This document shows, in pieces, positions 9,388 through 42,672 of a stretch of 64,000 nt of DNA (position 1 is the stretch's first letter; each line of letters begins with the position of its first letter). This DNA comes from Melioribacteraceae bacterium (lineage in GTDB: Bacteria > Bacteroidota > Ignavibacteria > Ignavibacteriales > Melioribacteraceae). The notes below the pieces were generated by a model. That model saw only the letters and a program-made list of their open reading frames with translations. It was not told the DNA's origin and did not search any database. The translations under genes and the position numbers were made by a program. The stretch lies in the NCBI GenBank assembly GCA_027030245.1, contig JALVFE010000013.1, positions 1 through 64,000 of the forward strand, in the 5' to 3' direction.

Positions 9388-11265
9388 TTAATCGATAGAT
9401 TTTTTTTCTTCCACTGAATTAATAAGCATTTTTTTATTTTCTTGTAATTGTCTGATTTCGGAAAGTTTTTCCCTTATGGAAGATTCGTCGGTCAGCTTTT
9501 GTAATTCGTTGTTTTTAATTTTTATTTTATAATCAATTTGGTTAAGTTTGAATTTTTTTACAGCGTCCATCGCAATTTTCAACGAGTCTTTTTCGATATC
9601 ACCTGAAAAAGACATATCCGCCCATTTCGAACTTATCGGTTCTTCGGAAAGAGTTAAAGTTAAAATATAGTTGCGGATTTTTTCGTCTTCTATTTTGCTT
9701 ATTAAAAATGCGGTGGAAACGTTTCCTTCAACCAATCCTTCGAAAACGAGATGTGCGAGTTCTTTAATTTTAGCATTTGTAAATTCATTTGGCGATATGT
9801 GATCGAAAATGTATTTTACCACATCTTGTTTACCTTCGAAAAGAAGAATCAAAAGTTCCTTTTCCACGTTTGAGATTCTCTTGTCGATTCCGTTTTCCGT
9901 TACTCTTAAATTCGTTTCCGGTTTATTTACCGTATCACGGTTTTTACGGATTGTGGTGGTTCGCTTGGTTTTTTCAAGGATTTTATCAAGTTCGGATTCT
10001 ATTAATTTTTCGCGGAGTCCGAATTTTCTTGCAATTGTTTTAATCAAAAGATTACGGCGCAAGTCGTCGTTAACCAAAGCGGCGCTTTTAACAAGTTCCC
10101 TAATCGCTTCGGCATAAGTTTTGGGATCATCGAAAGCTCCGGCTTTTTCGAATTGGGAAGTTTGATATTCCAGAAAGTTCATCGCTTTGTGCAGATATTC
10201 TTCGAACTCTTCCTTTCCGAATTTATTTACGAAAGAATCGGGGTCTTCGTTTTCGGGCAATGCTAAGATTTTTACATCGAAATCTTGCTTTAGTAAAATT
10301 TCTATACTTCGCATGGAAGCTTTCTGCCCGGCTGCATCCGCATCGAAAATGACAACAACGTTTTTGGTGTAACGCGAGAGCAGTCTTGCCTGGTCGTCGG
10401 TCAGCGAAGTTCCCGAAGATGCAACAACGTTTTTAATTCCGTATTGATAAAGGGAAATTAAATCCATGTAACCTTCAACCAGAATTGCTTTATCGAGTTT
10501 GCGGATTTCTTCTTTTGAATGATACAAACCGTATAAAGATTTTCGTTTGAGATATATCTCCGATTCTGGTGAATTAAGATACTTTGCCGCCTTGTCCGAT
10601 TTTTCCAATATTCTCCCGCCGAATGCAATTACCCTGCCGTTCGGTGAAAAGATAGGAAAGATTATTCTGCCCCTGAATTTATCGTAAAACTTGCCGCCTT
10701 CTTTCGCGTCTATCAAACCGAGTTTTTTTGCTTTGGCAAGATCGATATTGTTTTCGCGGCAGAAATTTACAAATGCATCCCAAACCGGCAGAGCGTAACC
10801 GAGTCCGAATATCTTTTGTGTTTTGGGTTTTATGTTTCTTTTTTCGAAATAGTTACGTGCAATCTCGCCTTCTTTACTTTTAAGCAAGTTTTCGGAAAAA
10901 TATCTGGCGGCTTTCACGTTGATTTCGTAAAGTTCTTCGGTAAGGTCTTTATCTTTATCGTTCCTATTGTTTTCAAACTCGAGCGGAATTCCGGCATATT
11001 CTGCAATTTCCTGCACTGCTTCTATAAACGAAATGCTCTTGAAATCCATTAAAAATTTGTAAACATTTCCGCCCGCATGGCATCCGAAACAATGGAATAT
11101 TTGTTTTTCTTCGCTTACAGTAAACGAAGGGGTTTTTTCTTGATGAAATGGACACAATCCAACGTAGTTTTTCCCGCGTTTCTTCAGTTGAACATATCCT
11201 GAAATAAAATCGACTATATTGACCGAACTGCGGATTTCTTCTATTTTATCTTCCGGTATTCTCAT
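9388..11265 (-). CDS. dnaG: DNA primase DnaG
   Basis: The 625-residue primase makes the RNA primers for DNA replication. The N-terminal CHC2 zinc finger has C38, H41, C59 and C62 (CPFHQEKTPSF, then HCFGC). The catalytic core contains the Toprim domain, with the AILVEGYMD segment carrying the conserved glutamate and IFDADAAG carrying the metal-binding aspartates. The C-terminal part (about 430-625) is a helical, charged region expected to bind the DnaB helicase and is poorly conserved, as usual. Length and order are typical. The gene is divergent from the DJ-1/PfpI gene and is followed by the GH13 gene. Confidence 0.96.
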   Translation of the reverse strand: MRIPEDKIEEIRSSVNIVDFISGYVQLKKRGKNYVGLCPFHQEKTPSFTVSEEKQIFHCFGCHAGGNVYKFLMDFKSISFIEAVQEIAEYAGIPLEFENNRNDKDKDLTEELYEINVKAARYFSENLLKSKEGEIARNYFEKRNIKPKTQKIFGLGYALPVWDAFVNFCRENNIDLAKAKKLGLIDAKEGGKFYDKFRGRIIFPIFSPNGRVIAFGGRILEKSDKAAKYLNSPESEIYLKRKSLYGLYHSKEEIRKLDKAILVEGYMDLISLYQYGIKNVVASSGTSLTDDQARLLSRYTKNVVVIFDADAAGQKASMRSIEILLKQDFDVKILALPENEDPDSFVNKFGKEEFEEYLHKAMNFLEYQTSQFEKAGAFDDPKTYAEAIRELVKSAALVNDDLRRNLLIKTIARKFGLREKLIESELDKILEKTKRTTTIRKNRDTVNKPETNLRVTENGIDKRISNVEKELLILLFEGKQDVVKYIFDHISPNEFTNAKIKELAHLVFEGLVEGNVSTAFLISKIEDEKIRNYILTLTLSEEPISSKWADMSFSGDIEKDSLKIAMDAVKKFKLNQIDYKIKIKNNELQKLTDESSIREKLSEIRQLQENKKMLINSVEEKKSID

Positions 11266-34133: not shown

Positions 34134-35048
34134 ATGAAAGTATCGGTAATTATTTGCACATATAATCGAGAGAAATTTTTGAAGTCGGCTTTGGATTCGT
34201 ATAAAAATCAAACTTTGCCTTCCGGTGATTTTGAAATTATTGTGGTTGATAATAATTCTACAGATAACACCAAAACGATTATGGAAAATTTTATTGAAGA
34301 AAATCCCACGCTTAATGTCCGTTACGTATTTGAAGAAAACCAAGGTTTATCATTTGCCCGTAACCGCGGAATAAAAGAAGCGGCGCACGAAATTATTGTT
34401 TTCGTAGATGACGATGCCGAAGCGGAAAATAATTTTCTTGAAAACGTAAAATCACATTTCGAAACCGATGAAAATTTAATTGCTGCCGGCGGTAAAGTCG
34501 AACCGGTTTTCGAAAGCGGAAAAGAACCGCAATGGCTTTCGCCTTTCCTTTGGGGATTGGTTACCAAAATCGATTACGGTAACAAAGCCAAACCTTTTCC
34601 CAAAAATAAATATCCGGTCGGGTGCAACATGGAATTCCGGAAAGATGTTTTTAATAAATTCGGAATGTTCGATACTCAACTCGGTAGAAAAGGACGTGTG
34701 GGTTTGGCAAGCGAAGAGAAAGATATCTTCGAGCGCTTGAAAGCCGCAGGCGCAAAAATTATGTATTTCCCCGATATTTCGATTCGTCATCATATTGATA
34801 ATTACCGGTTGGAAAAATCTTATATTATTAAATTGTGTTACGGAATAGGAATAAGCGAGAAAATACGAACTTCAAAGAAAAGTTTTATTTTATATATTTT
34901 CAAGTTAATTGAATTTATTTTTAAGTTTATTGCGTCTCTCGTTATTGCCGCCGGCTATATTTTGAAAGGGGAATTTGAAAAAGCGAAATATGTTGTTTTA
35001 TTTAGGTATCATATTTTGAAAGGGTTTTTCAAAAAAGAATATGAATGA
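34134..35048 (+). CDS. Family 2 glycosyltransferase
   Basis: The 304-residue protein has an N-terminal GT-A domain: VSVIICTYNREKFL, IVVDNNSTDNT, FVDDDAEAENNFLE (extended DDD metal motif), and a downstream E-E-K-D-I-F acidic segment (ASEEKDIFERL). A C-terminal hydrophobic stretch (about 250-272) probably holds it at the membrane. It overlaps the next gene by 8 bases (stop at 35048, next start 35041), so the two are translationally coupled. Confidence 0.87.
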   Translation: MKVSVIICTYNREKFLKSALDSYKNQTLPSGDFEIIVVDNNSTDNTKTIMENFIEENPTLNVRYVFEENQGLSFARNRGIKEAAHEIIVFVDDDAEAENNFLENVKSHFETDENLIAAGGKVEPVFESGKEPQWLSPFLWGLVTKIDYGNKAKPFPKNKYPVGCNMEFRKDVFNKFGMFDTQLGRKGRVGLASEEKDIFERLKAAGAKIMYFPDISIRHHIDNYRLEKSYIIKLCYGIGISEKIRTSKKSFILYIFKLIEFIFKFIASLVIAAGYILKGEFEKAKYVVLFRYHILKGFFKKEYE

Positions 35049-35904
35049 TTTGCAGAATAAAATTAAACAAAGTTTTCAGTCGGTGATGTCCGTTTTGAAA
35101 GTAATTTTACTTTCGAAGAAAAACGTAAAGCTGCCACACGCGAAAACCAACGAATGTATAATTCTTGCAAACGGACCTTCGCTTAGGAAAACCTTGAAAG
35201 AAAAACTCGATTTTATTACGAAAGGCGACAAGGAAATATTCGCAGTGAACTATTTTATCAATTCCCCGTTTTATGAAAAGATAAAAACGCAGTATTATGT
35301 TTTGAACGCACCGGAGTTTTGGATTGATACAACAACGGATATGCACAAACAAAAGCGAGCAAAACTGTTTGAAGATTTGAAAGCAAAAACGGATTGGGAT
35401 ATGAAAATTTTCGTCCCTTTCGATGCCGGGAAAACAAAGTTGTGGCAAAATCTTTTCGATTCGAATAAACATTTGAGCGTTGTTTATTACAATAAAACTC
35501 CGGTTGAAGGTCTGCAACGGATTAATAATTTTCTGTTTAAACATAACTTGGGAATGCCGCGTCCGTATAACGTTTTGGTTCCGACTATATTTCTTGCTTT
35601 GAACATGGGGTTTAAGACCATTTATTTATTCGGAGCGGATCATTCGTGGCACCAAGAAATAAAAGTGGATGAAAACAACAACGTTATGGTAAACCACGAA
35701 CACTTTTACGATAATTCCGCTCAAGTAAAACCGATGTATCATCTTGACGGAAAAGAATATTATATTCACGATATTTTCAGGAAACTTTACTTGGCGTTCA
35801 AAGGATATTTTGTTCTTAAAGATTATGCGGAAACTCTCGGTGCAAAAATTTTAAATGCAAGCGAAAAAAGTTATATTGATGCATTCGATAAAATTAAAGT
35901 GTGA
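35041..35904 (+). CDS. Rossmann-type protein resembling family 42/DUF115-like transferases
   Basis: The 287-residue protein has CIILANGPSLRK about 38 residues in and TIYLFGADHSWH in the C-terminal half. A glycine-rich xGxGPSL start and a conserved G-x-D-x(2)-W/H segment are shared by the sialyltransferase-like GT42 family and by the related DUF115/MptE group, which includes motility-associated glycosylation factors. The context, directly before the pseudaminic-acid genes, fits a nonulosonate transferase, but the match is from memory of motifs only. It overlaps the upstream glycosyltransferase gene and precedes pseB by 31 bases. Confidence 0.5.
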   Translation: MNDLQNKIKQSFQSVMSVLKVILLSKKNVKLPHAKTNECIILANGPSLRKTLKEKLDFITKGDKEIFAVNYFINSPFYEKIKTQYYVLNAPEFWIDTTTDMHKQKRAKLFEDLKAKTDWDMKIFVPFDAGKTKLWQNLFDSNKHLSVVYYNKTPVEGLQRINNFLFKHNLGMPRPYNVLVPTIFLALNMGFKTIYLFGADHSWHQEIKVDENNNVMVNHEHFYDNSAQVKPMYHLDGKEYYIHDIFRKLYLAFKGYFVLKDYAETLGAKILNASEKSYIDAFDKIKV

Positions 35905-35935
35905 TTCTTTTTAAAATTAATTTCGGTTTTTAATT

Positions 35936-36940
35936 ATGCTAAACGACAAAACAATACTTGTAACCGGCGGAACAGGCTCGTTCGGGAAAAAATTTATTTC
36001 CACGGTTCTCGAACGTTACACTCCGAAGAAGATTATTATTTACAGCAGGGATGAACTGAAACAATTTGAAATGCAGCAGTCCGGTAAATTTAAAAAAGAC
36101 GGAGTGCTGATGAGATATTTTATTGGCGATGTGCGTGATTTAGAAAGATTGAAAATGGCAATGTCTGGAGTCGATATTGTAATTCACGCCGCAGCGCTTA
36201 AGCAAGTTCCGGCTGCGGAATACAATCCTTTTGAAGCTGTTAAAACAAATATAATCGGCGGACAAAACGTAATCTCCGCATCGATGGAAGCAAACGTAAA
36301 AAAGGTTATCGCTCTGAGCACCGACAAAGCCGCCGCCCCGATAAATCTTTACGGCGCAACAAAGTTGGCGTCCGATAAACTGTTTATTGCGGCTAATAAT
36401 TATAAAGGTAAACGGGATATCAAATTTTCCGTTGTGCGTTACGGAAACGTAATGGGTAGCAGGGGTTCGGTGATTCCGTTTTTTATGAAGAAGAAAAAGG
36501 AAGGTGTTATTCCAATTACCGATGAAAGAATGACGCGTTTTAATATTACATTGCAAGAAGGCGTCGATTTTGTATTGAAATGTTTGGACAAAATGTGGGG
36601 CGGGGAATTGTTCGTTCCCAAAATTCCTTCTTACAGAATTATGGACGTAGCAAAAGCTGTTGCGCCCGATTGCAAAATAGAAATTGTAGGTATCCGCCCG
36701 GGAGAAAAAATTCACGAAGAAATGATTACCGAAACCGATGCAATTAATACAATCGAATTCGAGGATTATTATGTTATTCTGCCCGCTACAAAATTATGGG
36801 ACATCGAAAAATTCAGATTGGAAAGCAACGATAAACCCGGAAGGTTTTGCGAGCTCGATTTCCGCTACAGCAGCGGCACAAACGATAAATTCTTAACCGT
36901 TGAAGAATTGAGAAAATTAATTGAAGAAAATGTCGAATAA
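35936..36940 (+). CDS. pseB: UDP-GlcNAc 4,6-dehydratase (inverting), PseB
   Basis: The 334-residue short-chain dehydrogenase/reductase converts UDP-GlcNAc to a 4-keto-6-deoxy-L-sugar, the first step of pseudaminic acid synthesis. It has the NAD(P) motif TGGTGSFG (10-17), the STDKAAAP segment with D130/K131, and the catalytic YxxxK at Y139/K143 in NLYGATK. These features and the FlaA1-type length distinguish it from the longer FlmA/WbpM transmembrane dehydratases. It ends 11 bases inside the pseC gene. Confidence 0.92.
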   Translation: MLNDKTILVTGGTGSFGKKFISTVLERYTPKKIIIYSRDELKQFEMQQSGKFKKDGVLMRYFIGDVRDLERLKMAMSGVDIVIHAAALKQVPAAEYNPFEAVKTNIIGGQNVISASMEANVKKVIALSTDKAAAPINLYGATKLASDKLFIAANNYKGKRDIKFSVVRYGNVMGSRGSVIPFFMKKKKEGVIPITDERMTRFNITLQEGVDFVLKCLDKMWGGELFVPKIPSYRIMDVAKAVAPDCKIEIVGIRPGEKIHEEMITETDAINTIEFEDYYVILPATKLWDIEKFRLESNDKPGRFCELDFRYSSGTNDKFLTVEELRKLIEENVE

Positions 36941-38102
36941 AATTTACTCCTACGGAAAACAAAATATTGACGTTGCGGATATTGAAGCCGTTGTGGAAGT
37001 TCTTAAATCGGATTGGCTGACCCAAGGACCTGCGGTATCGAGATTTGAAGAAGCGCTTGCGGAAAAGTTCGGCGCAAAGTATGTCTCCGTTGTTAGCAAC
37101 GGAACGGCGGCTTTACATCTTACGGCTTTGGCGCTCGGCTGGCAACCTGGAGATGTTGTGCTTACAACTCCAATGACGTTTTTGGCAAGCGCAAATTGTA
37201 TTTTGTATGCCGGAGCAACTCCGGACTTTGTAGATATTGACGAATCCACCTACACTATTTCGCCTGAAAAATTAGAACAAAAATTAAAAGAATTACAAGC
37301 GGAAGGTAAAAACGTAAAAGCTGTTGTTGCGGTAGATTATGCCGGTCAACCTTGTGATTGGCAAAGATTAAGAGAGTTAGCCGATACTTACGGATTTCAA
37401 CTCGTTAACGATAATTGTCACGCGCTCGGCGCAGAATACCGGAATGATTTGCAGTATGCGGTAAAATATGCCGATGTAGTTGTGCAAAGTTTTCATCCCG
37501 TTAAACATATTACAACCGGGGAAGGTGGAGCTGTTCTTACAAACAACGGCGAAATTGATAAAAGCATTAAAATTTTAAGAACTCACGGAATGACTAAAGA
37601 CGAAAATATTCTGGAAAGCAACGACGGTCCGTGGTATTACGAAATGCACCGGTTGGGATTTAATTACAGAATTACCGATTTTCAGTGCGCTCTTGGTGTA
37701 ACGCAATTGAATAAACTCGATAGATTCGTTAAACGGAGAAGGGAAATTGCCGGATTCTACAACGAAACTTTCGGTGGCGACGAAAGATTTATAATTCCTT
37801 CGGTTGCTGCAAACGTTAAACATGCTTATCATTTGTATCCTTTGCAAATCAATTTCGATAACGTTAAAACCGACAAAAAAGAATTATTTGCAAAACTCCG
37901 TGAACGTAATATTTACGGGCAAGTTCATTATATTCCCGTTCATTTGCAACCGTATTACCGGAAAAAATTCGGATTCGGAAAAGGAGACTTTCCCGTTGCG
38001 GAAAAGTTTTACGAACGTGAAATATCTATACCGATGTATCCTTCGTTGACCGTTGAAGATTTATCATACATAACAAAAATGTTTAAGGAATTGGTGAGAT
38101 AA
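36930..38102 (+). CDS. pseC: Pseudaminic acid pathway aminotransferase, PseC
   Basis: This PLP-dependent aminotransferase of the DegT/DnrJ/EryC1 family aminates the C4-keto sugar made by PseB. It contains SNGTAALHLTALALGW, the LVNDNCHALGAE segment with the PLP-contacting aspartate, and the Schiff-base lysine in FHPVKHITTGEGG (K192 counting from the ATG at 36930). A TTG at 36921 is possible, but the ATG gives a tidy start and overlaps pseB by 11 bases. It is followed after 8 bases by pseF. Confidence 0.92.
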   Translation: MSNKIYSYGKQNIDVADIEAVVEVLKSDWLTQGPAVSRFEEALAEKFGAKYVSVVSNGTAALHLTALALGWQPGDVVLTTPMTFLASANCILYAGATPDFVDIDESTYTISPEKLEQKLKELQAEGKNVKAVVAVDYAGQPCDWQRLRELADTYGFQLVNDNCHALGAEYRNDLQYAVKYADVVVQSFHPVKHITTGEGGAVLTNNGEIDKSIKILRTHGMTKDENILESNDGPWYYEMHRLGFNYRITDFQCALGVTQLNKLDRFVKRRREIAGFYNETFGGDERFIIPSVAANVKHAYHLYPLQINFDNVKTDKKELFAKLRERNIYGQVHYIPVHLQPYYRKKFGFGKGDFPVAEKFYEREISIPMYPSLTVEDLSYITKMFKELVR

Positions 38103-38110
38103 AATTTACG

Positions 38111-38863
38111 ATGAAACAAAAACCATACATTGCTGTTATTGTTCAAGCGAGACGCGGTTCGAGCCGCCTTCCCGATAAAGTGTTAATGGATATCGAAGGA
38201 AAGACAATGCTGGGTTGGGTTATAAGCCGGCTGAAAAATTCCCGGTTGACAGACGATATAATTATTGCAACCACAACAAACGAAAATGACGATGCGATCG
38301 TCGAAGAAGCATTGAAATACGGCGTAAAATATTTCCGTGGCAGCGAAGACGACGTTCTCGACAGATATTACCAAACCGCAAAACATTTCAATGTGGAAAT
38401 TGTGGGAAGGATTACTTCCGATTGCCCGTTAATCGATCCGGCGCTGATTGATGAAGTTTTATCTTATTTTCTTGAGAATATCGACAAATACGATTTTTGC
38501 GCGAATACGTTAAAGAGAACATATCCGCGCGGAATCGGTTTTTCGTTCGTTAAATTTCCTGCGCTCGAAAAAGCTTGGAAAGAAGCCAAGCAGCCATACG
38601 AAAGGGTTCACGTTATGCCGTACATCCGTGAACATCCTAGAATATTTAAATTGTGCAGTTACGAAAAAGAAGGCGAACCTTTGGATAATCTTCGCTGGAC
38701 AGTCGATACCGAAGATGATTTGAAATTCGTTAGGGAAATTTTTAAACGTTTGAAAAATCCGGAAAAAGCGCCGTGGACGGAAATATTGCGTATAATTGAA
38801 AATGAACCGGAATTGATTAACATCAACAAACATGTTAAACAGAAAGAATTAAAAGATTTATAA
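38111..38863 (+). CDS. pseF: Cytidylyltransferase, PseF/SpsF-like
   Basis: The 250-residue enzyme has the signature of CTP-dependent nucleotidyltransferases, RRGSSRLPDK (about 14-23), followed by IVGRITSDCPLIDPALIDE, which carries the metal-binding aspartates. In pseudaminic-acid loci such proteins activate the sugar as CMP-Pse. The sequence also resembles the SpsF N-terminal domain, so another CMP-sugar is possible. It sits directly between pseC and pseG with short gaps of 8 and 15 bases. Confidence 0.85.
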   Translation: MKQKPYIAVIVQARRGSSRLPDKVLMDIEGKTMLGWVISRLKNSRLTDDIIIATTTNENDDAIVEEALKYGVKYFRGSEDDVLDRYYQTAKHFNVEIVGRITSDCPLIDPALIDEVLSYFLENIDKYDFCANTLKRTYPRGIGFSFVKFPALEKAWKEAKQPYERVHVMPYIREHPRIFKLCSYEKEGEPLDNLRWTVDTEDDLKFVREIFKRLKNPEKAPWTEILRIIENEPELININKHVKQKELKDL

Positions 38864-38878
38864 ACATAAAGCAATAAT

Positions 38879-39940
38879 TTGGAAAGCAAAAATAGATATT
38901 GCGCTTTTTTCAGAGTTGATGCAAATAAAATAATCGGTAGCGGGCATTTGGTGAGATGCCGCTTGCTTGCCGGTAAACTAAAATCGATGAACGTGAAATC
39001 CGTTTTCGTTTTCGAAGATATCCCGGAAGGATTTATTACACAACTGTCTGCGGAAAACTTTGATTTATATAAGCTAAAAAATACTTTGGATGAAACGAAT
39101 GAACTGATTTCGCTAGTGAAAAATTCCGGATGCGAAAAATCTATTATTATTACGGATAGCGATAAAAAATTATTTTATACGAAAGAGTTTCAGCTTAAAG
39201 TAAGGGAGAGCGGAATAAAATTAATGACCATAACTTTTTTTGCGGATGCTCATTTTTATTCGGATATAATTTTGAACCAAAACATTATGGCGCCGGAATT
39301 AACTTACTCTACCGAAAGTTACACGGAAAAGTTGCTGGGAACGGAATATGTGATTTTAGACCCGCGGTTTGCCAAACTACGGAATATTGCGAAACCCGTA
39401 TGGGCATTGAAGAAAAACGTTGTTCTTATCTCGTTCGGCGGTGCGGATAAACCTGACAGAACTTCACTTGTGTATGAATCTTTACAAGAATTCAAAGACA
39501 AGATTGATAAAATAATAATCGTTTTAGGTGCGCTTTATCAACACGAGAACAAAATAAGAAAGCTGGCTTCGGAAAGTTTAATTGAAACCGGAATTTATCA
39601 AAACACAAATGAAATGCCGCAATTAATGATTGAAGCAAAATATGCTTTTACTTCGGGCGGACTTACCGCTTGGGAATTAGCGGTAACAAGAACTTTGAAT
39701 ATCATTATTGCGGGATCGGAAAGGGAAACATTAACCGGCGAATATCTCGGTAAAAAAGGTTTTTCCTATTATCTCGGAAATGTAAACGATATAAAACCGG
39801 AAAATATTAAATATGCTTTTGAAGAAATACTAATTAATGAAGAAAAAAATAAAGCAATGGTAGAAAAATTAAATTCCGTTGTTAACGTAAACGGAATTGA
39901 AAAAGTAACGGACAAAATTTTGGAAATATTAGAACGATGA
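38879..39940 (+). CDS. pseG: UDP-sugar hydrolase of pseudaminic acid synthesis, PseG
   Basis: The 353-residue protein removes UDP from the diacetylated altrose derivative, yielding the precursor for PseI. It has the GT-B-like fold of PseG with the hallmark IGSGHLVRCRLLA, whose histidine (H23) matches the essential residue of the Campylobacter enzyme. The C-terminal half contains TSGGLTAWELAV, the UDP-binding region. The length is normal and there is no fused acetyltransferase domain. The start is TTG at 38879; the frame has a stop at 38867-38869 and no ATG between. It overlaps the next gene by 4 bases (ATGA). Confidence 0.88.
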   Translation: MESKNRYCAFFRVDANKIIGSGHLVRCRLLAGKLKSMNVKSVFVFEDIPEGFITQLSAENFDLYKLKNTLDETNELISLVKNSGCEKSIIITDSDKKLFYTKEFQLKVRESGIKLMTITFFADAHFYSDIILNQNIMAPELTYSTESYTEKLLGTEYVILDPRFAKLRNIAKPVWALKKNVVLISFGGADKPDRTSLVYESLQEFKDKIDKIIIVLGALYQHENKIRKLASESLIETGIYQNTNEMPQLMIEAKYAFTSGGLTAWELAVTRTLNIIIAGSERETLTGEYLGKKGFSYYLGNVNDIKPENIKYAFEEILINEEKNKAMVEKLNSVVNVNGIEKVTDKILEILER

Positions 39941-40872
39941 AGTTTAAAACTCACGAACTTATTGCCCGTATGAACGAAATACTTTCCGGTAAAGAAAAAG
40001 AATTTTATACGGATGATAAAAGTATTCCGCCGGTTTTTATTGCGGGTGCACCGCGTTCCGGTACAACACTGCTTTATCAAATTCTTGTTTCCGCTTTCGA
40101 TATCGGTTACATCGATAACATTTCCGCAAAGTTTTGGGAAGCCCCGGTTTTCGGTCTGGTTTTAAGCAACGAGATTTTTCCTTTCGGTGAAAGGGTTTTA
40201 ACCGATTACCGTTCGGAATACGGCTTTACGAAAGAACCAACCGGGCCGCACGAGTTCGGGTATTTTTGGAAACGTTGGTTCAAGTATTCCAATACTCACG
40301 AATTGGATGAAGATAAATTAAATCAAATCGATTCGGATAAACTGACAAAGGTAATTTATTCGATGAATTCGGTTTTGAACAAACCTGTTGCGTTCAAAAA
40401 TGCGGTTGCCGTTTCTTTGCAAATTAAATATTTGGCGGAAACATTTCCCGAAGCGGTTATTTTATCGATTGAAAGAAATCCACTGTATAATGCTCAATCG
40501 ATATTGGAAGCAAGAATTAAAAGCGGTAATCCGGAAGAATGGTTTTCCGCTAAACCGAAAGAGTATGAAACTCTGAAAAGCAAAAGCATTTATGAACAAG
40601 TCGTAGGACAAGTTTACTATTGTAACGAAAGGATAAGTGAAACCAAAACCGTAATTTTACATTCGGAAAATCCGCAAAGACTTGTGGAAATTAAATACGA
40701 AGAACTTTGTGAAAACCCGGATAAAGTCGTTGATTTGATTGCCGAAAAACTTTCGGAAATCGGTGTAAAAAGAAAAAACACTCAATTTAAAAAATTTAAT
40801 TCAACAAATAATATAAGACTTAAAAAAGAAGTTTTCGAAAAACTGGAAATAGAGTATAATAAATATTATTGA
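39937..40872 (+). CDS. Sulfotransferase family protein
   Basis: The 311-residue protein carries the PAPS-binding loop APRSGTT (38-44), the 5'-phosphosulfate motif of sulfotransferases, and later VILSIERNPLYNAQSI, matching the 3'-phosphate-binding strand. Such enzymes transfer sulfate to a sugar or protein. Its ATG overlaps the pseG stop and it is followed by a WbqC-family gene after one base, so it is part of the same operon. It may sulfate the glycan made here. An acetyltransferase-like role in place of PseH is not supported by sequence. Confidence 0.85.
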   Translation: MKFKTHELIARMNEILSGKEKEFYTDDKSIPPVFIAGAPRSGTTLLYQILVSAFDIGYIDNISAKFWEAPVFGLVLSNEIFPFGERVLTDYRSEYGFTKEPTGPHEFGYFWKRWFKYSNTHELDEDKLNQIDSDKLTKVIYSMNSVLNKPVAFKNAVAVSLQIKYLAETFPEAVILSIERNPLYNAQSILEARIKSGNPEEWFSAKPKEYETLKSKSIYEQVVGQVYYCNERISETKTVILHSENPQRLVEIKYEELCENPDKVVDLIAEKLSEIGVKRKNTQFKKFNSTNNIRLKKEVFEKLEIEYNKYY

Positions 40873-40873
40873 T

Positions 40874-41632
40874 ATGAAAGCAGCGATAATGCAACCGACA
40901 TATTTGCCTTGGATTGGTTACTTCGATATGATCGATCAAGTAGATACGTTTGTTTTTTTGGATGATGTTCAACTTGTAAAAAGAAGTTGGGGAGTGCGTA
41001 ACAGAATTAAAACGCCGCAAGGGGAACTGATGCTGACGGTACCCGTGAGAAAAACAAAATCGCGCGAAGAAACATTTTACTCGAATGCAAAAATAAATTA
41101 CGAAGAAAAGTGGACGGAAAAACACTTGGAATCGATAAAAAGAGCATATTCCAAATCAAGTAATTTTTCGGAGTTTTTTCCTGTTATCGAAAAACTGCTT
41201 TCCGCAAAATACGATACCGTTGCCGGATTGAATATTTCAATTATTAAAACATTCGCCGGTTTACTCGGATTGAACACTAAATTCTTACGTTCTTCGGATT
41301 TGAGCGGAATAGAAGGAGCAAAAGATGAAAGATTGGTATCGATATGCAAAAAGATAAACGCCGGTTATTATTTATCGGCACGGGGAAGCGCGGAATATAT
41401 AGAGCGGAATAACCCGGGCGGAGCTTTTTCTAAAAACGGAATTGAACTTTACTATCACAATTACGTTCATCCGATATACAAGCAATTGTCCGGTAATTTT
41501 ATTCCTTTTATGTCTGTAATAGATTTAATTTTTAACGAAGGATTGGAAAACAGTTTGGAGATTATTAGGTCGGGAAGAAGGGAACCTGTGCACTTTAAAA
41601 ACATTAAAAACTTTGTGAGTGAATCACAATGA
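40874..41632 (+). CDS. WbqC-family protein
   Basis: The 252-residue protein begins KAAIMQPTYLPWIGYFDMI and continues with DTFVFLDDVQLVKRSWGVRNRI, the signature of the WbqC family. Members occur in O-antigen and glycan loci, have no established activity and resemble small-molecule transferases in overall pattern. The catalytic residues are unknown. It lies between the sulfotransferase and pseI genes, overlapping pseI by 4 bases (ATGA), which ties it to nonulosonate synthesis or use. Confidence 0.85.
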   Translation: MKAAIMQPTYLPWIGYFDMIDQVDTFVFLDDVQLVKRSWGVRNRIKTPQGELMLTVPVRKTKSREETFYSNAKINYEEKWTEKHLESIKRAYSKSSNFSEFFPVIEKLLSAKYDTVAGLNISIIKTFAGLLGLNTKFLRSSDLSGIEGAKDERLVSICKKINAGYYLSARGSAEYIERNNPGGAFSKNGIELYYHNYVHPIYKQLSGNFIPFMSVIDLIFNEGLENSLEIIRSGRREPVHFKNIKNFVSESQ

Positions 41633-42672
41633 GAATAGGAAACAAAGAAATCGGGAAAGGCAATCCTGTCTTTATAATTGCAGAATTATCCGCTAATCAC
41701 AATCAAGATTACAAGTTGGCGGTCGATACGATTCATGCAATGAAAGAAGCCGGAGCCGATGCGGTAAAATTGCAAACATATGCGCCGGATACAATAACAA
41801 TCGATAGTCGCGACGATTTATTTTTGAAAAAAGACGGCTTATGGAAAGGGAAAACTTTATATGAATTATATCAAACCGCTTATACACCATGGGAATGGCA
41901 ACCCAAGCTGAAAGAGCTATCCGAAAAATTGGGAATGATATGTTTTTCTTCGCCTTTCGATAAAACCGCAGTTGACTTTCTCGAAGAGATGGGAGTACCC
42001 GCATATAAAATTGCTTCGTTCGAAATTGTTGATATTCCGCTGATTGAATATGTAGCATCGAAAAAGAAGCCGGTGATTATTTCCACGGGTGTAGCCGGTT
42101 TGGAAGATATAGAACTCGCAATTGAAACTTGTAAAAATGCCGGAAACGAAGATATAGCCTTACTGAAATGCACTTCTTCATATCCCGCGCCTTACGAAGA
42201 GATGAACTTGAGAACAATTCCGTATCTGGCGGAGAAATTCGGTTTGCCTGTTGGTTTGTCCGATCATTCTTTGGGGATTTCCGTCCCCGTTGCTTCTGTT
42301 GCTTTGGGCGCTGTCATAATCGAAAAACATTTTATTCTCGATAAAAAAATAAATTCCCCCGATGCCGCTTTCTCGCTCGACCCGCAAGAGTTCAAAGAAA
42401 TGGTAACTGCGGTAAGGCAAGTTGAAAAAGCTTTGGGTAAAGAAGAATATGTTTTTACCGGACAAATGAAAAAATCGAGACAAAACGCACGTTCGCTTTT
42501 TGTGGTAAAGGATATTAAGAAAGGCGAAAAATTCACCGGAGAAAATATCCGTTCAATTCGACCCGGCGCGGGTTTGCACCCGAAGTATTATAATGAAATA
42601 CTCGGTAAAATTGCCGCTGAAGATATTAAAAAAGGAACACCGCTAAAATGGGAAATGGTGTCCCGCTATTAA
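41629..42672 (+). CDS. pseI: Pseudaminic acid synthase, PseI (NeuB family)
   Basis: The 347-residue enzyme condenses the 6-deoxy diacetamido sugar with phosphoenolpyruvate to give pseudaminic acid. It has the NeuB TIM barrel (FIIAELSANHNQDYKLA, GADAVKLQTYAPDTIT, GLSDHSLG, IEKHFILDK) and a C-terminal SAF/antifreeze-like domain (about 285-345; SLFVVKDIKKGEKFTGENI). NHNQD and the LKLQTY-type segment match PseI more than NeuB. It is the last gene of the locus and meets the convergent M24 peptidase gene after 2 bases. Confidence 0.9.
   Translation: MRIGNKEIGKGNPVFIIAELSANHNQDYKLAVDTIHAMKEAGADAVKLQTYAPDTITIDSRDDLFLKKDGLWKGKTLYELYQTAYTPWEWQPKLKELSEKLGMICFSSPFDKTAVDFLEEMGVPAYKIASFEIVDIPLIEYVASKKKPVIISTGVAGLEDIELAIETCKNAGNEDIALLKCTSSYPAPYEEMNLRTIPYLAEKFGLPVGLSDHSLGISVPVASVALGAVIIEKHFILDKKINSPDAAFSLDPQEFKEMVTAVRQVEKALGKEEYVFTGQMKKSRQNARSLFVVKDIKKGEKFTGENIRSIRPGAGLHPKYYNEILGKIAAEDIKKGTPLKWEMVSRY

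Follow-up and report, generated by a model that had tools for sequence, protein, structure and literature searches.

A WbqC-family protein as a candidate substitute for PseH in a pseudaminic acid-type operon of a Melioribacteraceae bacterium

The window analyzed here, a 64,000-nucleotide stretch of contig JALVFE010000013.1 (positions 1 to 64,000, assembly GCA_027030245.1) from a Melioribacteraceae bacterium, carries a pseudaminic acid (Pse) operon that has no recognizable gene for the N-acetyltransferase PseH and has a gene for a WbqC-family protein between pseG and pseI. To judge from PseB, PseC and PseI, the pathway is of the Pse type, and two of its defining features, PseH and a canonical PseF, are missing. 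We find it probable, if not strongly so, that the N-modification normally carried out by PseH is here the work of WbqC. The fuller proposition, that the operon makes a Pse-type sugar in which WbqC, and not a GNAT-family acetyltransferase, acts on the amine supplied by PseC, we hold to be evenly balanced. That WbqC does so as a ligase resembling BshC, the cysteine-adding enzyme of bacillithiol synthesis, is a tentative proposal drawn from structural models. The core Pse gene set spans window positions 35936-42672 on contig 13 of a 3.8 Mb draft genome (G000; loci and genomes are given below as L and G numbers). The plus-strand run from 35041 comprises the following open reading frames (ORFs), with scores relative to model cut-offs where these apply.

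35041..35904, plus strand: MptE-like ORF heading the operon (PF01973, 31.9 bits, below the cut-off of 34.6); same position in L005/G401
35936..36940, plus strand: pseB, inverting UDP-GlcNAc 4,6-dehydratase (TIGR03589, 529.5 bits, above 407.75)
36921..38102, plus strand: pseC, 4-aminotransferase giving a free 4-amine (TIGR03588, 493.1 bits, above 423.5)
38111..38863, plus strand: SpsF-type cytidylyltransferase in the PseF position (PF02348, CTP_transf_3, 121.5 bits; TIGR03584, 32.5 bits against a cut-off of 205.7)
38879..39940, plus strand: pseG, UDP-sugar hydrolase of 353 amino acids (TIGR03590, 147.3 bits, slightly below 153.55)
39937..40872, plus strand: sulfotransferase (Sulfotransfer_3, PF13469, 62.4 bits); same position in L005/G401
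40874..41632, plus strand: wbqC, in the PseH slot; proposed to act as the N-acylating enzyme (PF08889, 241.5 bits)
41629..42672, plus strand: pseI, pseudaminic acid synthase (TIGR03586, 511.4 bits, above 340.25)

A first-pass annotation of this DNA had listed PseB, PseC, PseF, PseG and PseI as all present and nearly contiguous. The genes and their order are as described, but the supposed PseF falls below the TIGR03584 cut-off and is an SpsF-like enzyme. The same annotation had placed a sulfotransferase and a WbqC-family protein between pseG and pseI, in agreement with the PF13469 and PF08889 matches, and had seen no acetyltransferase candidate at the locus. Pfam and NCBIfam scans of the window's proteins likewise found no GNAT in the operon run and assigned WbqC to no GNAT family. 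A GNAT domain fused to PseG was considered and ruled out: only the PseG domain was matched along its 353 residues, as first annotated, whereas the fusions in 18 of 40 relatives have 467-511 residues. The search of the genome for PseH or GNAT genes that had been proposed returned no clear pseH. The PseH model TIGR03585 (cut-off 93.1 bits) gave no match over its cut-off anywhere in the genome and four sub-threshold matches, the best of 60.4 bits on contig 29 and none on the window's contig. Because TIGR03585 also finds matches in 13 of 14 control genomes, such sub-threshold matches are generic. A lost pseH gene is possible, since the assembly is a draft of 40 contigs with 97.72% completeness.

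The operon is retained in a second species of the genus. Genome G401, 98% complete, carries it split over two contigs, the first holding the genes through the sulfotransferase and ending within WbqC (91% identity over 47 residues), the second starting within WbqC (72% identity over 238 residues) and continuing into PseI (83%). The PseG of this relative (L005) is 54% identical to that of the window, and no GNAT was labeled on the two operon-bearing contig stretches. In G399 and G400, also of this genus, no PseI was found at E ≤ 1e-60.

These comparisons bear on the possibility that a generic GNAT acetylates the 4-amine in trans, in which case the product would be ordinary Pse5Ac7Ac and WbqC would do something else. 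The best candidate among the four matches is a 159-amino acid ORF on contig 29, which has a 71% relative in G401, where the operon is also present; in six family genomes with a linked GNAT (G019, G035, G047, G070, G082, G188) a search at E ≤ 1e-25 found none. Every match, however, stays below 93.1 bits and is unlinked to the operon, and the model itself is generic in what it matches. Relatives of the contig-29 protein occur in 11 of 38 family genomes examined, including G000 and G401, and none of the nine others has a PseI over cut-off. A PseH in trans would also leave both the diverged PseG and the conserved WbqC unexplained. We therefore regard an ordinary acetylated product as unlikely, and the contig-29 protein as an unlikely PseH.

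Across the phylum, PseI exceeds its cut-off in 41 of 296 genomes, the window's own included, and the regions of the 40 others were analyzed, some of them clipped by contig ends. GNAT labels, assigned with home-made profiles, were counted if they lay on the pseI strand within 9 kb; weak GNAT matches on PseG proteins of 320-371 amino acids were left out as PseG tails, and the counted labels of L016, L017 and L020 are weak (40-51). By this measure a linked GNAT accompanies pseI in 32 of the 40 loci, in 18 of them as a PseG-GNAT fusion, and is lacking in eight (L015, L024, L025, L027, L033, L036, L039, L043). In L024 and L039 Pfam identifies a formyltransferase between pseG and pseI, and in L027 (7787-9463) a carbamoyltransferase lies there; L036 has a 560-amino acid ORF near 10546, in the position of the L027 carbamoyltransferase. 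L043 (7223-8413) encodes an ATP-grasp protein with an L-amino-acid-ligase domain. L025 has WbqC immediately upstream of pseI, with a methyltransferase between WbqC and pseG, and its genome, G098, gives no TIGR03585 match at E ≤ 1e-4. L015 and L033 hold neither a GNAT nor a recognized replacement. Elsewhere, L045 combines a normal PseG-GNAT fusion with a WbqC about 8.6 kb from pseI in a separate cluster. Within the genus of G098, WbqC occurs at E ≤ 1e-30 in seven of 65 genomes, the other six proteins being 32-37% identical and lying in other kinds of loci. Other Pse loci of the phylum also have ATP-grasp proteins inside or close by (L034:10530-11477, L020:11381-13345, L038:12872-13804), and this class may represent another amide-forming route.

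PseG diverges in the two lineages that have WbqC in the PseH slot. The reference for the window was a set of seven family loci with a GNAT (L008-L014). Against these, the window's proteins show mean identities of 76% for PseB, 69% for PseC, 40% for SpsF, 25% for PseG and 65% for PseI; the corresponding values of those seven among themselves are 77%, 71%, 53%, 54% and 74%. L025, set against the GNAT-bearing loci of its own genus, has 78% for PseC, 57% for PseG and 84% for PseI, where those loci reach 78%, 74% and 83% among themselves. PseG is the outlier in both WbqC lineages, and PseB and PseC are ordinary in the window. As the first enzyme to meet the acyl group, PseG would be expected to diverge in this way if that group had changed.

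The neighborhoods of WbqC suggest a wider link to sugar amines. A phylum survey found WbqC at E ≤ 1e-38 in 62 of 395 genomes; 60 of the 67 places listed were taken, and the WbqC profile labeled 57 of them (not L124, L125 or L135). Twelve of the 57, without a DegT aminotransferase or PIG-L deacetylase within three genes, were set apart as a solitary type, a choice made after the contexts had been viewed. These proteins (L122, L123, L126, L127, L128, L130, L131, L132, L133, L134, L136, L137) are more diverged, and their role may differ. WbqC lies directly beside DegT or PIG-L in 26 of the remaining 45 loci (background genes, 13.5%) and within three genes of one in 39 (background, 38.7%). On viral contigs, from 55 IMG/VR loci with WbqC, 54 WbqC ORFs were recovered in 53, and 22 of the 52 used adjoin DegT or PIG-L (background, 12.1%). 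DegT, WbqC and PIG-L stand in a row on eight of these contigs (L149, L150, L153, L157, L159, L162, L165, L198), where the cassette consists of one or more short-chain dehydrogenase/reductase enzymes, DegT, WbqC and PIG-L; viruses may thus carry amino-sugar tailoring genes.

A stricter control used same-strand genes two to five places from WbqC at 104 loci, plasmids included and the solitary type excluded, thinned at 50% identity. After thinning, 24 of 57 loci have DegT or PIG-L next to WbqC; for control genes the count is 66 of 357 (p 1.5e-4). The excess holds for PIG-L alone (12/57 against 24/357, p 0.0014), for DegT alone (14/57 against 44/357, p 0.016), for DegT or PIG-L in the bacterial loci (16/29 against 37/187, p 1.3e-4) and for PIG-L alone in the viral ones (7/26 against 12/161, p 0.007). 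The window's own operon has no PIG-L deacetylase. Of the seven genes inserted in a flagellar island of Dickeya zeae, one is listed as WbqC and another as a DegT aminotransferase (PMC9650423). Two loci of the survey (L103:9030-12977, L108:9013-12962) contain a second nonulosonic-acid cluster with NeuB-like, SpsF, PseG-like, WbqC and PIG-L proteins and no aminotransferase in the run, and three Pse loci that lack WbqC have PIG-L deacetylases beside or near pseI (L019:8781-9491, L027:10735-11454, L038:10540-11250).

Amine-making and amine-consuming enzymes were also tallied, by eye and unplanned, in 17 nonulosonic-acid loci with WbqC, setting aminotransferases and PIG-L against WbqC and the GNAT, hexapeptide and formyl enzymes; two near-copies, L185 and L193, were excluded, as was the Pse operon neighboring L103. 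The two sides balance in 12 loci (the window, G401, L025, L103, L108, L140, L163, L170, L180, L184, L190, L195) and fail to do so in five (L080, L082, L092, L145, L167), a result that is suggestive only. If instead the step were not replaced at all, the 4-amine would stay free or be altered at a later stage by a different enzyme, the diverged PseG would accept the amine, and WbqC would serve some other sugar or glycan step. Such an arrangement is consistent with L015 and L033 and with the presence of WbqC in many non-Pse loci, but we think it improbable: both species of the genus keep WbqC between pseG and pseI, G098 has it immediately upstream of pseI, and WbqC is enriched beside amine-making enzymes.

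What kind of enzyme WbqC might be was approached through its predicted fold. The protein matches PF08889, a family described as functionally uncharacterized (PMC5532660), over its full length at 241.5 bits (gathering score, 21.3); the Pfam scan returned this family only and neither of the BshC models PF10079 and PF24850 (Rossmann-like and coiled-coil). Nothing tested sets the window's WbqC apart from other members of the family, and sequence searches found no relative with a solved structure. An AlphaFold2 model built from a 53-sequence alignment has a mean predicted local distance difference test score (pLDDT) of 95.4. When VIA-align was run on Foldseek's best 1000 chains, the top match to this model was Bacillus subtilis BshC (4wbd), with Z 14.6 over 227 of 252 residues, a root-mean-square deviation of 3.5 and 10% identity; below it came a tyrosyl-tRNA synthetase (Z 8.3), phosphopantetheine adenylyltransferases and, lower down, pantothenate synthetases. 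BshC was again the top match of a model of the viral WbqC from L159 (pLDDT 95.8), with Z 14.8 over 219 of 234 residues, followed by class I lysyl-tRNA synthetase at Z 11.6. As a guide to these scores, a model with no clear match usually has a best VIA-align Z of 7-8, or of about 14 if it is mostly helical. A structure search of a viral model library with WbqC gave five matches at E ≤ 0.001, all unnamed. Modeling WbqC for an acyl-CoA or nucleotide pocket had been proposed with the first-pass annotation; the predicted fold points to nucleotide chemistry, and an acyl-CoA pocket is probably the wrong test.

The same structural matches bear on whether WbqC is instead a sugar-amine N-acyltransferase that draws on an acyl-CoA, carrier-protein or folate donor and is not an ATP-dependent ligase. 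Known sugar N-acyltransferases take CoA or formyl-folate donors, and locus L242 (5841-10049) has a hexapeptide-type ORF together with a carrier-like ORF of 82 amino acids and an acyl-AMP-ligase-like ORF of 522 (the last two recognized by eye). The 50 best rows for the WbqC models, however, are mostly nucleotide-binding enzymes, such as class I aminoacyl-tRNA synthetases and adenylyltransferases, and contain no GNAT or hexapeptide chains, an absence that does not exclude either family; we give this donor chemistry little credence.

The deacetylase BshB belongs to the PIG-L family, and MshB and MshC of mycothiol synthesis form a pair similar to BshB and BshC. BshC joins cysteine to glucosaminyl-malate once BshB has freed the amine (PMC5372718, PMC6282198). 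BshC (PF10079) is the top structural match of both WbqC models over nearly the whole chain. It is described as working on a sugar amine that a deacetylase has exposed, and in surface-glycan loci the position of WbqC genes next to PIG-L deacetylases, where they are enriched, or next to aminotransferases follows the same logic. WbqC differs from BshC in size (about 230-250 amino acids, against about 540 for BshC) and has no significant sequence similarity to it. Because a separate BshC is encoded elsewhere in the window's genome, on a different contig, the bacillithiol role there does not fall to WbqC. Conservation in WbqC is high at Q7, D30, Q33, R42 and D217, each present in no fewer than 70 of the 90 rows. 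A similar-looking motif after the first strand (Q..[YF][LIF]P[WY].G[YF] in WbqC, [HQ]Q..LF.GP.Y in BshC) was not counted, because the spacing differs.

If WbqC is a BshC-like ligase, the pathway could run as follows. By gene orthology, PseB and PseC would yield UDP-4-amino-4,6-dideoxy-AltNAc, to whose 4-amine WbqC would join a carboxylic or amino acid, probably nucleotide-activated, as BshC does with cysteine on glucosaminyl-malate. A PseG fitted to the new acyl group, as its divergence suggests, would remove UDP. From their families, PseI would add phosphoenolpyruvate, so that the acyl group comes to sit on N-7, and the CMP sugar would be formed by the SpsF-type enzyme. The probable role of the sulfotransferase is to modify the sugar or the glycan. 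The predicted product is a Pse whose N-7 carries a group other than acetyl.

WbqC as a stand-in for PseH is supported by its context: the operon kept in a second species, the WbqC slot in G098, the divergence of PseG, the amine-enzyme neighbors and a predicted fold closest to that of the amide-forming enzyme BshC. Several observations weigh against this reading. WbqC fills the PseH slot in just one of the 40 other Pse loci (L025). Foldseek with the window's model found no Protein Data Bank match at E ≤ 0.001, and the two WbqC models are not independent, because their alignments share most sequences. Sequence profiles gave no support for kinship between WbqC and BshC, none of three comparisons being significant (E 0.15, 0.044 and 0.09) and the unrelated control SpsF scoring better (0.02). 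DegT or PIG-L beside WbqC falls short of significance in the thinned viral loci (8/26 against 27/161, p 0.08). Horizontal replacement of PseG could give a similar divergence. A Pse-specific clade of WbqC was also rejected: the proteins of the window, L025 and Mariluticola (L140) do not group together, and that of Mariluticola groups with the WbqCs of the Chlorobi-like nonulosonic-acid loci L080, L082 and L092. Finally, recognized acyltransferases adjoin WbqC more often than they do controls (13/57 against 38/357, p 0.012), and WbqC is therefore not simply a universal acyltransferase stand-in. The first-pass reading, PseH elsewhere or an atypical sugar with WbqC as a possible replacement, is partly supported: the absence of PseH and a possible substitution by WbqC have context in their favor. 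Mariluticola was rejected as a third simple PseH replacement, because its locus adds to PIG-L (98.7 bits) and WbqC a probable formyltransferase, which scores 24.8 bits with PF00551 (cut-off, 26.1).

Relative to the CMP-pseudaminic acid pathway (PseB-PseC-PseH-PseG-PseI-PseF), the window shares PseB, PseC and PseI over their curated cut-offs, a recognizable PseG and a contiguous operon, and departs from it in lacking PseH, in using an SpsF-type enzyme for PseF, in its strongly diverged PseG and in the inserted WbqC and sulfotransferase. Geobacillus is reported to have Pse gene sets without PseH, and also a formyltransferase, fmt3, at the acetyltransferase position fdtC (PMC5109656). There too the N-acetyltransferase is absent or displaced by another N-acylating enzyme, with L024 and L039 as parallels in the phylum. 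The Geobacillus replacement, as described, is of a known formyltransferase family, whereas that of the window belongs to a family described as functionally uncharacterized. Searches of open-licence papers turned up no WbqC activity and no role for WbqC as a PseH replacement or BshC-like enzyme.

PF08889 occurs in many surface-glycan loci and viral contigs. As a more speculative extension of the ligase proposal, the family might be a widespread set of BshC-like amide ligases, a surface-glycan counterpart of the bacillithiol deacetylase/BshC pair and of MshB/MshC in mycothiol synthesis. Both bacterial and viral members would attach carboxylic or amino acids to sugar amines that DegT makes or PIG-L exposes ("de-acetylate and re-acylate"), and in this operon WbqC would have displaced PseH to make an unusual, possibly aminoacylated Pse. 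Were WbqC such an N-acylating ligase, loci seemingly without PseH would be explained, non-acetyl amino sugars would become predictable from gene content, and there would be an acyl-CoA-independent route to new sialic acid-like sugars.

The run is flanked upstream by a family-2 glycosyltransferase and downstream by a convergent M24 peptidase. At its head, the MptE-like ORF is, on its profile score, a weak match and lies outside the core Pse pathway. Its motif NGPSL is, we presume, reminiscent of GT42 sialyltransferases, and similar ORFs were found near the Pse loci L044 and L046.

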